Of a stretch of 64,000 nt of DNA, positions 19,585-26,508 are shown in pieces. The DNA is from Planctomycetes bacterium MalM25 (GTDB lineage: Bacteria; Planctomycetota; Planctomycetia; Pirellulales; Lacipirellulaceae): contig CP036424.1 in assembly GCA_007745835.1 (NCBI GenBank), positions 1,635,001 through 1,699,000 on the forward strand, read 5' to 3'. The notes under the pieces are model-generated. The model had not been told where the DNA came from and made no database searches. It worked only from the letters and a program-made list of their open reading frames with translations. How positions within the stretch are numbered: the first letter of the stretch is position 1; each line of letters starts with the position of its first letter. The translations under genes and the position numbers were made by a program.

Positions 19585-19682
19585 GCGAAGGATTGTCGGC
19601 GAGATGGCCGTTTCTCGATAGACGGATACGCCTGCGCACGCGAGCGATTGCGGCGCAGCGGCCTGAGGGGCAAAGTAGCGGC

Positions 19683-20927
19683 GTGGATGATGCGAACGCC
19701 CCGCCGCCAGCCGCCAGCAAGCCGTCCCGGCTCGGATCGCTCGACGCGCTGCGCGGTTTCGTGATCGCTTCGATGTTGATCGTCAACATGACCTGGGACC
19801 GCGAGGCCTTGCCCGGGTGGTTGTTCCACGTTCCTTGGAACGACCCGGCGCAGGGGGCGACCTTCACCGACCTCGTCTTCCCCTGGTTTGTATTCGTCGC
19901 GGGCTGCGCGGCGCCCCTCTCGATGCGGTCGGGGCGGGGGCGGGGCAAGACCCGGGGCGAGTTGCTGAGCGCCGCCGGCTGGCGGGCGTGTCGGCTCTAC
20001 CTGATCGGCGTGTTGCTGACGGTCGCCTCCTTCGCGCACGAGACGCCCCTCGATTGGAGCCACCTGCTGTCGTGGAACATCTTGCAGCTGCTGGCGGCCG
20101 CGTACCTGGTGGTGGTCGTGGTGCAGATGACACCCCGGCCGTGGCGGATCGGCTTTGTCGCGGCGGTGCTGGCGCTAAAGTGGGCGACCTTTCTGTTGCC
20201 CTACGACGCGGTCACCGCTTGGGTCACTCCTCGCCCGGTCGATGGAGCCCCGCTTGGGCCCGGCGCCTGGGCGCACTTCGACGCGGTGAAGCAGCTAATC
20301 AATTACGAGTTCGCGCCCGCGCCAACCAGCGGGTCTCGGTTGTTGGGGTGGCTCGGCATGATGCAGCAGTACCTGCCCCTCGCGGCGATCGGGGTGATCG
20401 GCGCCCTGGTGACCGAAGAGCTGGAACGCAAACGCGACTGGCGGAGCGTCGGCGCAATCGCGTTGATCGGCGCGGCGTTGGTCGCGGCGGCTTTCGCCTT
20501 GCAGGCCGGCTATCGGTCGGAGGGAGGCGGCCTGTGGGGCGTGGCCACCGTCCCCTTCAGCAAGTGGTTCTTCAGCCCCGCCTACTGCCTGCTGGCGGCG
20601 GGGACGGGGTCTTTGCTGCTGGCGGCCTTCTTCGCCGCGATCGACCTCGGGAAGATCGAGTGGCTGACGCCGCTGAGTGTGCTCGGTAAGAACGCGTTGG
20701 CCGTTTATGTCGGCGCCGAGCTTTCCTTCAAGCTGGTCTTCGGCCACTGGCTCATGATGACGCCAACCGGCGAGTCGGCGCCGATCGCTTCGGGGGTGCA
20801 GGCTTGGTTGGAGGCCTGGAGCGGCTCGCCCGCCCTCGCGGGGCTCGGCTGGGCGGCGATGTGGCTTGTCGGGTGGTGGTTGATCGCCTGGAAGATGGAC
20901 GCGCGGGGCTGGTACTGGCGTGCTTAG
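19683..20927 (+). CDS. DUF1624/HGSNAT-like membrane acyltransferase
   Basis: 414 residues from GTG 19683; TTG 19593 would add 30 basic residues overlapping the divergent MFS leader. About ten membrane helices. The opening SRLGSLDALRGFVIASMLIVNMT is the family hallmark (YeiB / heparan-alpha-glucosaminide N-acetyltransferase-like), with the LDALRG motif of membrane acyltransferases. It probably transfers acyl groups to extracytoplasmic sugars, but no substrate is shown. Its TAG stop (20925-20927) is the first three bases of a long palindrome. Confidence 0.75.
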   Translation: MDDANAPPPAASKPSRLGSLDALRGFVIASMLIVNMTWDREALPGWLFHVPWNDPAQGATFTDLVFPWFVFVAGCAAPLSMRSGRGRGKTRGELLSAAGWRACRLYLIGVLLTVASFAHETPLDWSHLLSWNILQLLAAAYLVVVVVQMTPRPWRIGFVAAVLALKWATFLLPYDAVTAWVTPRPVDGAPLGPGAWAHFDAVKQLINYEFAPAPTSGSRLLGWLGMMQQYLPLAAIGVIGALVTEELERKRDWRSVGAIALIGAALVAAAFALQAGYRSEGGGLWGVATVPFSKWFFSPAYCLLAAGTGSLLLAAFFAAIDLGKIEWLTPLSVLGKNALAVYVGAELSFKLVFGHWLMMTPTGESAPIASGVQAWLEAWSGSPALAGLGWAAMWLVGWWLIAWKMDARGWYWRA

Positions 20928-21080
20928 AGCGTTTTTCGATCAGGCGTAACGGCCAGGCCTCGTGGGTTCGCTCGTCGCTTTATCGGCCTCCATCGGCGAT
21001 GCTCGCATCGCCTGTTTCGGCCTCCGCGCGACCAGCGATCCCACTTCGCCTGGCCGTTACGCTTGATCGAAAACGCTCTA
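20925..21080. repeat. 156-bp imperfect palindrome between convergent stops
   Basis: Outer arms 20925-20958 and 21048-21080 are inverted copies, differing by one indel and one base over 33-34 bp (TAGAGCGTTTT... with ...AAAACGCTCTA). Pairing continues inward in patches to a perfect tip, GGCGATGCTCGCATCGCC. Both genes end with TAG formed by the outermost three bases of each arm. It could be a MITE-like insertion or a long bidirectional terminator. No transposase is present. Confidence 0.85.
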
Positions 21081-21452
21081 GCCGTTGGCGTTATCGCCAC
21101 GCAGCCGTGCGATCACCTCCGGCAACGGGTACTCGGTGATCGGAACGTCGAGCTTCACCAACTCTCGAAGCCTCCGCCAGCCGCGTGTGACAAGCGCTTC
21201 TTGTTCGGTCACATGTTGCGGGCTCAGATTGCGCTTTGCGAACGGCCCTTCGTGGAAAACTTGGTCAAACTTGTCGTCAATTATGTATTGAGCCAAGGAC
21301 GGGTTACAACGAAGGTGTCTCTCGGGGCTTGTGTGCAGCGTCTCGGGATCGACCCGCCCGATAACAAAGCGAAGGTACAGGTCCGAGTCGGTGATCGAGC
21401 CGACCTCCTCACCACACACGTCGCACAAGTAGCCCTCATCACACTTCGCCAT
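21078..21452 (-). CDS. Conserved planctomycete hypothetical, zinc-ribbon-like
   Basis: 124 residues from ATG 21452. The N-terminus has CDVCGEE preceded by another Cys (AKCDEGYLC), and HLRCNPSLAQYI follows at about residue 45, so four or five Cys plus His could bind zinc. The C-terminal half (ALVTRGWRRLRELVKLDVPI) is probably helical. I recall similar proteins only from planctomycetes and know no function. Its TAG stop is formed by the end of the 156-bp palindrome. Confidence 0.65.
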   Translation of the reverse strand: MAKCDEGYLCDVCGEEVGSITDSDLYLRFVIGRVDPETLHTSPERHLRCNPSLAQYIIDDKFDQVFHEGPFAKRNLSPQHVTEQEALVTRGWRRLRELVKLDVPITEYPLPEVIARLRGDNANG

Positions 21453-22571: not shown

Positions 22572-25500
22572 CTAGAAGGCTTCGCCGAGCGAAAGCCCCT
22601 CTTCGGACTCTTCTAGTTGGTCGGTTTCATCCGCGGTGCTCCATTCGGCCGCCGAATCTTCCACCCCCCCCGGAGACGATCCTTCGAGCAGGAGCAGGGC
22701 GAACGCCGTGTCGCTGGGCTCTTCGATGGAGAGAGAGGCGGCGCCTCTGCCGCTGTTGACCGGCTCCTCGAAAGGGAGTGAGGCGGGAGCCGTGAGGGGC
22801 GATCCGGCGTCGGCGGATGCCAACTCCGCGGGCGGCTCGACGTAGTTGATGCGGCCGATCTTGCCTTGCAGATCGACGAAGTACATCCGCCCGTCGGGAC
22901 CCATTGACATTTCGACCACCTGGCCGACCGAGCCCATGACGACGTACGACTGATCGAGCGCGCCCTCCGCGTCGAGGGTGATAGCGCGGACCGTGGGGTC
23001 GCCGAAGTCGGTGAAGAACAGGGCGTTGTCGAACCGCGAGGGGTAGAGGTCGCCGGTGTAGAAGTCGCCCAGCACGATCGCGACCCCGCCCGCCCCGTGC
23101 GACCGGCTCCACAGCGGCGGGGTGGCGAGGGCGTCGCCGCCGGCGGCGTAGAAGGCCTGGGCTTCGGCGAGGTCTTTGTAGCCACCGGTCTGGCGGTTGA
23201 TCGCATCGCCGCCCAGCCCGCCCGAGGCGGCGCCCCCTTCGTAGAAGGGCCAGCCGAAGTTCTGCCCGCGCCCGCCGTTGATCTCCTCCCACGAGTTCCA
23301 GCCGACATCGCCCACGTAGGGGACGCCCGTGTTCGGTTCGACGGCCAGGGTGAACGGGTTGCGGAGGCCGTAGTTGTAGACCTTCGATTGATCGTCGGTG
23401 GTGTCCCCCGTGTAGAACGGGTTGTCGCTGTACCCCTCCCCGGTGAGCGGGTCGATCCTCAGCACCTTGCCCGACAGGCTCTCGCGATCTTGGACCCGCG
23501 TGGTGCGGGGATCGACGCGTCCGTAGCTGGTGCCGTCGCCGTTGGTGACGAACAGCGATCCGTCCGGCCCGAAGTCGAGCGCGCCAATTGTGTGCGACTG
23601 GCTGTCGGTGATCAGGATGTCCGGGACCCAGTCGCCGTTCTGGTCGAGGCCCGAAGGGGGCAGGCCGATGTCGCTCGTGCTGTCCTTGTCGGGTGAGCTG
23701 AGATTGTTCCAAGTGCTCCCTGTGCCGAGCAGCACGACGTCGCTACCCGGGACGACGGTGCGGTAGGCGTTCGACGCGTCGAGCGTGAGCCGCGTGAGCC
23801 GAGAGCCCCGGTTGCCGAAGTTGTCGGGAGCGGCGAGGCCGCTCTGGCCGGCTGTCTCGGGCGGGTCGTACGTGTAGAGGAGGTAGAGATATGGGTTCGC
23901 GGTCAGGTCGGGATGCACCGCCATGCCGAGCAGGCCGCGGTCCCGCACGTTGTTGACCGGCGTGCGGTAATCGACGACGACCTCGGACTGCAGCACGCCG
24001 TCGATCGCGAGGCGAACGCGTCCGTCCTGCTGCGAGATGAAGAGGTAGTCGTCGTCGTTGACCACGGAGAAGTCGATGCCGGTGGGTCGCGACAGCCCGG
24101 AGTCGATGATCGTCTCGGCGACGAACTGGCCGGTCTCGGGGATGATCACCTCGCTGTACAGCTGCGACGTGGGGACGATCTGGTACGGTTGCGAGGCGCT
24201 CGACCAGCGGAGCTGGGCCGCCGCGACGCCACTCTGCTCGTACATTTCCATGCGGATGTCGTACTTGACGTTTGCTTCGAGGGTGATCGACCCGGTGTGA
24301 GCGGTGGGTGCCTGGTCGATCCACCGATCGATGATCAGTTGGTTATTGATCCAGAGCCGGACCCCGTCGTCGGTGATCGTCTCGAAGGTGTAGGTCTCGC
24401 TGTAGAGCGGTTCGATCTCGCCGGTCCAACGCACGGAGAAGTTGTCGGCTCCGACGGACGGGGCGGGGGACCCGTTGCCCCAGTTGAAATCGATCGTCGC
24501 GTCGGTCCGTTCGGTCAGCAGGGTGCCGAAGCCCGTCCCGCTGTAGTACTGCCCGAGGAGCCCGACGCCGTCGCCCAGGTTGGGCGCGTCGTCGTCGAAG
24601 ATGGTGACCGTGGTCGTCCGGGGCTGGCCGAGTGTCGCCCCCCCGGTGACCCGGTCGGCGGAGAGGTTGAAGGCGTGGCGGCCCTCCAGGGCGTTGTCGT
24701 CCAGGATGGGGATCTGCACGGTGGCGACGGTCTGGCCGTCGGCGAACACGAGCGTGCCGCTGGTCGTGGTGTAGTCCTCACCCGCGATCGCTTCGCCATC
24801 GACGGTGGTGTAGTCGAGGGTCACGGAGCCTCGGTCCGCCGTGCGGACGAACCCGACTTCGACGAACCCGCCGGTCTCGTTCACGCGGTACTGCGTCTCC
24901 CCAAGCGAGAGCTCGCCCGCCTCGTCGGGGTCTTGCCCGTACTGGAGGACGCCGTTGATGTGCAGCCGCTCGTCCTGCACAAAGCCTGGCTTCACGCCGC
25001 CGCGATCGGGCAGGTAGGTCCCCGTGGAGAAGGTGGTGAGATCCTCGGTCTCGTTCCGCACGCCGTCGAGTTCGATCGCGTCGATGCGGACGTTGCGGTC
25101 GAATCCCCCGGGCGAGCCGTCGTTGAGGAAGGCGACTTCGAGGTCGTCGATCGAGAGGGTGCGGGGGTGGATGACGGCGTGGGGCTCGAAGCGCCTGAGG
25201 TTGTAGTCGCCGCCCAGGCCCCGGATGCGTGCCGCCTCGGAACCGGCGACGTTCACCGCGATCTCCTCGTCCCCCACGGTCCCCGCGGCGAACACGATCA
25301 TCCGCGAGCCGCCCGCGGGACGCGAGGAGTACTGGAAAAAGCCCTCTCCGTGCAGCGACTCGCTCTGAGGAAAACCGGGCACGATCTCGCCATCACGCCA
25401 GGTGCCGGTGCTCATGGTGGTGGTGGCTTCGGAATGGTAGACGCGACCGTCGATCGTGATGGCGTCGACCTTCAAGTTGCGGTCGCGGTCGTCGGCGGTG

Positions 25501-26165
25501 CGGCCGTCGTTCACGAACTCGACGCGCACGCGGTCGGCCGCGACCTTCGACGGATGCGTGTAGTCGAAAGCGACGAACGCACGGTTGTTGTAGTCGCCGC
25601 CGACGTCGGCCCATTCCGCCACCGCAACGCCGTCGATCCACAGCCGCATCAGTTCCTCGCCCGTGGCGCCCGCGGCACGGACGCGTAGCTGAGAGGTCGC
25701 GTCGGCAGAGAAGTGCAACGCTCCCAAGTTCGAGTAAATGTATTCCGACCCGGCGAACCCGGGCACGATCGCGCTGAGCTGGTTGGACCAAGTCCCCGTG
25801 TTCCAGTTCGTGGGGGATTCGGCTTCGAACTTGGCGCCGGCGACTCGCACGCCATCGACCCGCAGGTCCTTGCCGGCGCCCGCGCTATCGACCAGACGGA
25901 CGACCACGTCGTCGGCGGTGGCGTCGGTCGGGTGCGTGTAGTCGAGCGTCACGAACTGGCCGCCGGAGAAGTCACCGCCGACGTTCTCCCATCGCCGCAC
26001 CTCGACGCCACTTATCTCAAGGGCCACCTTTTCCGTGCCCGAGAGCCCCGCCGCGTAAACCTCGATCGGCGTGGCGGCGAGCAGGCGCCGGTCTTCGAGC
26101 GGCTCGAAGCGACCTCGGCGGGAAGCTCGGGGCAGCGGGGCCGAACCGTTGTGGCGGAGGGGCAT
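22572..26165 (-). CDS. LEPR-XLL protein: CBM60 x3, Calx-beta, PA14, sugar dehydrogenase
   Basis: 1197 residues from ATG 26165. The N-terminus carries RRGRFEPLEDRRLLA, the planctomycete LEPR-XLL signal found on very large exported proteins. Then come three copies of a CBM60-like xylan-binding module of about 120 residues (each opening like IEVYAAGLSGTEKVAL and with DRNLKVDAITIDG-type strands; about 32-405), a Calx-beta domain (about 420-525), a PA14 domain (about 530-670, FNWGNGSP to AAQLRWSS), and a six-bladed glucose/sorbosone dehydrogenase-like propeller (about 680-1090, with GLLGMAVHPDL, NYGLRNPF and GWPFYEGG). The acidic tail has no PEP-CTERM. It probably binds and oxidises plant or algal polysaccharide outside the cell; activity is inferred. 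Confidence 0.85.
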   Translation of the reverse strand: MPLRHNGSAPLPRASRRGRFEPLEDRRLLAATPIEVYAAGLSGTEKVALEISGVEVRRWENVGGDFSGGQFVTLDYTHPTDATADDVVVRLVDSAGAGKDLRVDGVRVAGAKFEAESPTNWNTGTWSNQLSAIVPGFAGSEYIYSNLGALHFSADATSQLRVRAAGATGEELMRLWIDGVAVAEWADVGGDYNNRAFVAFDYTHPSKVAADRVRVEFVNDGRTADDRDRNLKVDAITIDGRVYHSEATTTMSTGTWRDGEIVPGFPQSESLHGEGFFQYSSRPAGGSRMIVFAAGTVGDEEIAVNVAGSEAARIRGLGGDYNLRRFEPHAVIHPRTLSIDDLEVAFLNDGSPGGFDRNVRIDAIELDGVRNETEDLTTFSTGTYLPDRGGVKPGFVQDERLHINGVLQYGQDPDEAGELSLGETQYRVNETGGFVEVGFVRTADRGSVTLDYTTVDGEAIAGEDYTTTSGTLVFADGQTVATVQIPILDDNALEGRHAFNLSADRVTGGATLGQPRTTTVTIFDDDAPNLGDGVGLLGQYYSGTGFGTLLTERTDATIDFNWGNGSPAPSVGADNFSVRWTGEIEPLYSETYTFETITDDGVRLWINNQLIIDRWIDQAPTAHTGSITLEANVKYDIRMEMYEQSGVAAAQLRWSSASQPYQIVPTSQLYSEVIIPETGQFVAETIIDSGLSRPTGIDFSVVNDDDYLFISQQDGRVRLAIDGVLQSEVVVDYRTPVNNVRDRGLLGMAVHPDLTANPYLYLLYTYDPPETAGQSGLAAPDNFGNRGSRLTRLTLDASNAYRTVVPGSDVVLLGTGSTWNNLSSPDKDSTSDIGLPPSGLDQNGDWVPDILITDSQSHTIGALDFGPDGSLFVTNGDGTSYGRVDPRTTRVQDRESLSGKVLRIDPLTGEGYSDNPFYTGDTTDDQSKVYNYGLRNPFTLAVEPNTGVPYVGDVGWNSWEEINGGRGQNFGWPFYEGGAASGGLGGDAINRQTGGYKDLAEAQAFYAAGGDALATPPLWSRSHGAGGVAIVLGDFYTGDLYPSRFDNALFFTDFGDPTVRAITLDAEGALDQSYVVMGSVGQVVEMSMGPDGRMYFVDLQGKIGRINYVEPPAELASADAGSPLTAPASLPFEEPVNSGRGAASLSIEEPSDTAFALLLLEGSSPGGVEDSAAEWSTADETDQLEESEEGLSLGEAF

Positions 26166-26508
26166 CTTTGTCTGGAGGGCGTGAGGAGACGCGGCTGTCA
26201 ATCTGGGCGCTTTGCGGCGAATAGCTTATCAGCGACGGGGTCTCGGTCAAATTCCTCCTGCTTATCTCGGCGAGATTTCTAGATTGTTTCCGCCGTGAGA
26301 ATCTGTGATCGGAGGGGAAAGAGCGGCGAACCAAACAGGTGTCGGGTCGCGTATCCCCCCGCAGAGTTAGCCGGCTGCGTTTCAGGGACCGGATCGGGGT
26401 GGGGAGAGTCTCGCCACCCGTGTTAGGTTCTTCGTCCCCGCAACGGTGAGCTCCCGATCGCAGGAGGCGATCGACCTCGCCATTTCAATCCGACCCGAGG
26501 GCTGGAGC
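26166..26508. other. Divergent intergenic region
   Basis: 343 bp between the LEPR-XLL gene and the secreted gluzincin. Slightly A/T-richer near 26210-26290. I see no convincing promoter pair, hairpin terminator or small gene. Confidence 0.4.

Follow-up and report, generated by a model that had tools for sequence, protein, structure and literature searches.

A palindrome of 156 bp lies between two convergent genes of Planctomycetes bacterium MalM25 and its outermost bases form the stop codons of both, which raises the question of how it came to stand there and what it did to its neighbours. The initial annotation of the window (the whole stretch of 64,000 nucleotides that was analysed) offered two answers: the insertion of a MITE-like element that truncated both genes, or a selected long terminator. 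The analysis described here indicates that the feature is very probably one copy of a family of palindromic non-autonomous elements of 156–161 bp (MITEs), which entered a TA shared by the two stop codons and left both proteins intact.

The palindrome and the genes that end in it

The whole palindrome, including two TA dinucleotides, spans positions 20925–21080 and was delimited by repeat finding, folding and comparison with other copies; it is given on the plus strand, following the orientation of its core (CCATCGGCG...CGCCTGTTTCGG). It reads TAGAGCG at the 5′ end and CGCTCTA at the 3′ end. The element proper (GAGCG...CGCTC, 20927–21078, plus strand), as defined by the TA duplication and the YTAR target, stands between the duplicated TAs at 20925–20926 and 21079–21080, to which no strand is assigned. 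The left 27-bp end (20925–20951, plus strand) resembles some IS630 ends of sister genomes and is mirrored by the right 27-bp end (21054–21080, minus strand), and the conserved core (20984–21022, plus strand) comprises a GGCC/GGCC stem, an internal loop and an apical hairpin.

A repeat search returned arms of 46 nt each (20933–20978 and 21028–21073) with 87% complementarity, and the hairpin tip, GGCGATGC-TC-GCATCGCC, pairs perfectly as an inverted repeat. As single-stranded DNA with flanks of 10 bp, the element folded at −64.9 kcal mol−1 against a shuffle mean of −32.45 kcal mol−1 (z = −10.9), which was equalled by none of 200 shuffles. The length, termini and perfect tip given in the initial annotation were thereby confirmed; the arms that it described are also real, but its figure of about 33 matching bp is too low, almost the entire element being paired in the fold if a few mismatches are allowed. 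Rfam scans of the element gave no family above threshold, the best matches being RF02598 (22.9 bits, cut-off 41.8) and RF03654 (30.3 bits, cut-off 100). The element does not fit a GTAG-tagged REP or REPIN; such a REP, as outlined in PMC3733652, is a palindrome of 20–40 bp with GTAG at one end, against the 156 bp and TAGAGCG ends of the present element.

Gene A (19593–20927, plus strand; Pfam HGSNAT_cat, DUF5009) was defined from its open reading frame, Pfam and orthologues; its true start is probably later than 19593, because both orthologues align only from residue 39 or 40. Gene B (21078–21452, minus strand), defined from its open reading frame and homologues, encodes 124 residues from an ATG at 21452 and has no Pfam match. 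The reading frames on both sides do terminate in the outer TAG of each strand, as had been stated: the left TA provides the first two bases of the gene A stop (20925–20927) and the right TA, read on the minus strand, those of the gene B stop (21080–21078). Elsewhere in the window a minus-strand reading frame of 1209 residues (22572–26201) carries FEPLEDRRLLA near its start, which we take to be a motif of planctomycete exported proteins.

That the outer TAG is the actual stop on each strand is what an insertion that cut both genes short and gave them new stops would produce. Such a truncation is nevertheless highly improbable, since the flanks joined through one TA (GCT-TA-GCC) already carry both stops in frame: the plus strand reads TGG CGT GCT TAG and the minus strand AAC GGC TAA. 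Before the insertion gene A thus ended in TAG and gene B in TAA, the stops of the two convergent genes overlapped, and the site was classed as a double stop. The homologues also argue against truncation. The gene A orthologues of genomes G008 (64% identical) and G003 (57%) end in YWRV* at the same codon as the YWRA* of the window. Homologues of gene B were found in 37 of the 43 family genomes (the present one counted), and among the 29 that were returned as loci and aligned, 28 have their stop at most four residues from that of gene B, and the remaining one (L337) exceeds it by about nine residues. Genes A and B are likewise convergent in G003, where their stops lie 23 nt apart and the element is absent, although this neighbour has diverged and no orthologous empty site is near enough in sequence for a base-by-base comparison. 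Homologues ending at the same codons, which the initial annotation had counted in part against its insertion proposal, are therefore a fact, but one that overturns the truncation and not the insertion of a MITE. For annotation in general this is a warning that a gene is not necessarily truncated when an insertion supplies its stop codon.

Dispersed copies, target site and stop codons

Further copies, for which the initial annotation had suggested a search, were located with BLAST and with a covariance model (R1) built on seven copies gathered by DNA similarity. The 4.72-Mb contig holds the element at seven places (1655925, the window copy, 2198664, 1110708, 505331, 3054006, 4486804 and 1368393; 11 matches with the strands counted apart), so that the alternative of no second copy anywhere is false. 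The copy at 505331 has a central deletion and a length of about 132 bp, and a half copy lies near 1490240. One of 156 positions differs between the 2.20-Mb and the 1.11-Mb copy, so that movement was recent. Matches were obtained in eight of the 43 family genomes, the present one and seven others, and 35 had none; they numbered 69 in G007, 47 in G027, 23 in G023, 11 in the present genome, five in G002, three in G005 and one each in G018 and G012, where one place may count twice, once per strand. The same-genus genomes G001 and G003 gave no matches. Stricter filters were used in this search of more than 40 genomes, and BLAST matches of 24–27 nt in G048 and G056 were dropped. Two variants were observed in G023: a copy of 174 bp that contains an internal duplication (L371, 1381–1554, contig C12) and has a weak DDE_3 fragment some 100 bp away, and a 45-bp palindrome consisting of the element ends only (L372, 860–904, contig C63), perhaps a deletion derivative.

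The element duplicates TA on insertion at a YTAR target. In 60 of the 69 G007 matches, which were taken with 1.2-kb flanks, the TA is preceded by C or T in 57 and followed by G or A in all 60; beyond YTAR the pooled profile holds nothing else that is strong. The copy at 1.11 Mb interrupts CCCTCCCC-TA-GCCCCTCCC, a repeat that occurs uninterrupted five times in retrieved loci (L166, L286 and L297) of two congeneric species. A G007 copy (L260) interrupts another repeat, unrelated to the first, at GATGC-T-TA / GCGTG; this second repeat is uninterrupted, with a single TA, at L271, L272 and L257. At L275 the flanks form a perfect palindrome around one TA. The two comparisons with unsplit repeats and the L275 palindrome identify a single TA as the target and support a target duplication, for which the initial annotation had suggested a search. 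The second repeat, seen in the left flanks at L260, L271, L272 and L257, is itself palindromic (about 90–110 bp, with GTGCGA..TCGCAC ends and CACACCGCCACACACGC inside), and the hairpin element is inserted into it or adjoins it.

Stop codons are frequent insertion sites and are rebuilt by the TAG ends of the element. Classification of 82 copies (60 of them G007 copies, the other 22 spread over six further genomes including the present one) placed 20 on one stop, five on two overlapping stops, 14 downstream of a stop by 1–60 nt, 38 elsewhere in intergenic DNA and five in predicted genes. The set leaves aside nine of the 69 G007 matches, G012, the 505331 copy of the present genome, most of G023 (where five of the 23 matches, each strand counting separately, were used) and of G027 (three used of 47), and L011, L035 and L049, which were not placed by the end finder. 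Control YTAR sites in the same flanks, for which genes were called with the same in-house script, fell on one stop in 20 cases, on two in none, within 60 nt in 52, in other non-coding DNA in 305 and in genes in 206. Measured against all non-coding DNA, 25 of 77 copies lie on stops compared with 20 of 377 other YTAR sites (odds ratio 8.6, p = 3 × 10−10), and measured against sites 1–60 nt downstream the odds ratio is 4.6 (p = 2.6 × 10−4); related G007 copies are separate insertions here, their flanks being different, and standing copies fit targeting or survival alike. In the present genome four of the six classed copies are on stops, two of these double.

Between genes A and B, the element very probably entered the single TA common to their overlapping stops. 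Because it starts with G at both ends, TA plus G reads TAG on either strand, so that both stops are restored, both proteins stay intact and 154 bp are added between the genes. The frequency of stop codons among the sites may reflect the fact that TAA or TAG after a pyrimidine is itself YTAR and that an insertion there would alter no protein; something perhaps also favours the 3′ ends of genes. Mobile DNA usually harms the site that it enters, and the combination of these ends with a YTAR target makes the stop codon a harmless landing place; as stop codons account for 25 of the 82 sites, such a rule of harm avoidance is measurable.

The same distribution bears on the alternative of a selected long bidirectional terminator, or RNA-stabilizing hairpin, at convergent gene ends, with mobility as a secondary property. 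The hairpin is stable, its arms covary (see below) and, among the 75 copies that have two neighbours, convergent pairs (32) outnumber divergent ones (ten). The other 33 pairs are tandem, however, and a role at convergent gene ends does not sit well with the copies in other intergenic DNA or with an element from which most of the family genomes are free. A terminator scan for a GC-rich stem followed by a T-run found no site in 20700–21300, and the core shows no orientation bias at single-stop sites, where it runs in the same direction as the host gene in 11 cases and in the opposite direction in nine. This second proposal of the initial annotation thus found no evidence and is unlikely, although the hairpin may have some part in termination or RNA stability.

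The ends and the candidate transposase

A length of 156 bp is too short for a transposase. The element has terminal inverted repeats without a transposase gene, dispersed copies with different flanks and a TA duplication, which are the three defining features of a MITE. It is classed here as a MITE, for which no autonomous partner was found, rather than as an established derivative of IS630. The MITE-like insertion proposed at the outset is supported by the several copies, by the TA duplication and by ends that are like those of some IS630 elements.

The comparison of ends was made with a matrix derived from 20 MITE ends, of which 18 score at least 12.7 and two score 3.8 and −2.4; positions 7–27 of the 27-bp end read GTTTTTCnnnTAGGCGTAGCG. 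The background consisted of 286 other TAGAGC sites, MITE remnants included, and its 95th percentile is 4.8. Ends beside IS630-type (DDE_3) matches in sister genomes scored 15.4 (L189, which adjoins a DDE_3 match below the Pfam cut-off), 13.8 (L188), 12.8 (L186) and 9.6 (the right end of L170), and three further ones scored 1.3, −0.1 and −2.1; four of the seven therefore exceed the background 95th percentile and three do not. All seven IS5-type ends scored negative and none rose above background. These scores suggest that an IS630-family transposase may move the element in trans by acting on its ends of about 27 bp.

The IS5-type scores count directly against the rival view that a transposase of that type (YTAR/CTAG target, like IS870), and not of IS630 type, moves the element. 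IS870 is an IS5-type element that reportedly requires CTAG and generates its own stop codon with it, IS5-type elements with TAGAGC ends are present in sister genomes, and some same-core elements of Phycisphaerae are flanked by TTA or TAA. An IS630-type transposase does not explain these TTA or TAA flanks, which belong to same-core elements with other ends. With all of the IS5-type ends negative and four IS630-type ends above background, we regard movement by an IS5-type transposase as quite improbable, and an IS630-type transposase is the preferred candidate.

No autonomous partner with matching ends was found in the present genome or in G007 by a search with one Pfam family and exact end patterns, and the IS630 step is therefore an inference. 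G007, the genome with most copies, has no DDE_3 match. The sole DDE_3 insertion sequence of the present genome (region 1441–2028 of L021, G000:C1:2060332) was rejected as partner; its ends are, by eye, CTCTTATTGTCGGTCGCATGGC-like and unlike those of the hairpin element, and an in-frame TAG interrupts its DDE_3 reading frame. A candidate insertion-sequence end at G007:C3:458534 is really a MITE-end remnant beside a long reading frame, which presumably resembles FtsK/SpoIIIE. The end pattern had 17 matches in G007; six places were fetched, and most of the others resemble MITE variants by the matched sequence alone. The 72 loci that share the core (see below) held one IS630-like match (L146), far from the core, some transposase frames in this comparison having been taken on the wrong strand. 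An IS630-type reading-frame fragment at L188 (1377–1775, minus strand, G002:C16) ends in a TAG whose first two bases are the terminal TA and whose third is the adjacent base of the flank; this transposon's own stop seems to be supplied by the target, as is reported for IS870.

The conserved core and known systems

In the alignment of the seven copies, 21 of 53 pairs have changed on both sides with the pairing kept, which none of 500 shuffles reproduced and slid controls approached with at most six. An exact core pattern of 24 letters, with the arms unconstrained, was then found in 72 stretches in 84,980 species genomes and in none in IMG/VR. The titles of 71 of these stretches name Planctomycetota, Pirellulales, Pirellulaceae, Phycisphaerae, Botrimarina or Aeoliella, and one names Omnitrophica. 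The core stands at the middle of hairpins of about 160 bp with several kinds of ends; identity within the pattern is by construction, and hairpin, length and end variety are independent of it. When arm was aligned against arm, 56 of 61 cores exceeded the 99th percentile, and 39 of these also the maximum, of 1220 control places, and five lay below that percentile (L104, L113, L128, L137 and L102); the other 11 of the 72 are too close to a contig edge for this alignment. It replaced a poor RNA-fold control: 20 arm pairs were attained by 54 of the 61 cores, yet 30 of 170 controls attained them too, since DNA rich in GC folds in any case.

The end groups that share the core are TAGAGCG, GAGGGTGTTTC (mostly with TTA or TAA flanks), TAGGCTCTGCC, TCTAGGAGCC, AAGAGCTTGTC and TTAGAACTG, and 24 chosen same-core representatives are 156–171 bp long. 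R1, which itself contains the core, matches at least once in each of 27 sources spanning the end classes. A further end type was seen at L093 (201–361, G027:C27), where the same core has GAACGTG...CACGTTC ends and flanks CTCA / TCAG, and two Phycisphaerae loci carry elements side by side (L108, 4339–4499 and 4584–4743; L154, 94–252 and 361–521).

The retention of paired arms and core may mean that the element needs a folded strand or the core sequence. We put forward tentatively, as possible rather than probable, that these are modular mobile hairpins spread through the phylum, in which one core (CCTGCATCGACG ... CGCCTGCTTCGG, with a covarying stem) is carried on the ends of several transposon types (TA-flanked GAGCG, TTA/TAA-flanked GAGGGTG and others), at a length of about 160 bp and with a preference for stop codons that are rebuilt on both strands. 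This modular core is the novel part of the finding. If the reading is true, the core would be a working part that a protein binds or that folds, as RNA or as single-stranded DNA, with the ends exchanged around it, and the element would not be the leftover of one insertion sequence; MITEs could then carry a selected module and switch transposase partners.

The nearest precedent for making a stop codon out of the target is the use of CTAG by IS870, reported by Fournier et al. (1993). There the stop closes the transposon's own reading frame, whereas the gene-less element of the window restores the stops of host genes. No comparable MITE or palindromic repeat of planctomycetes came up in open-licence papers, as far as titles and abstracts show. 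As outlined in PMC2229807, YPAL/RU-2 is a palindrome of about 168 bp and thus similar in length, but its termini lack TA and its duplications are of 3 to 26 bp. Correia/NEMIS and ERIC, described in the same outline as MITEs of 100–200 bp with TA termini and a long stem-loop in the transcript, share size class, termini and stem-loop with the window element and differ in sequence (as far as the Rfam scans reach) and host. RUP, the repeat unit of pneumococcus, is in that account a non-autonomous repeat of about 100 bp (107 bp) with ends like those of IS630-Spn1, insertion at TA and a stem-loop. The window element appears to work like RUP, Correia and ERIC, and resembles RUP in being short and non-autonomous, in ends that are similar to some IS630 ends, in its TA target and in its stem-loop; RUP differs in its length of 107 bp, its sequence and its host, and the outline in PMC2229807 mentions for it neither a conserved functional motif nor the habit of landing on stop codons that distinguishes the present element.
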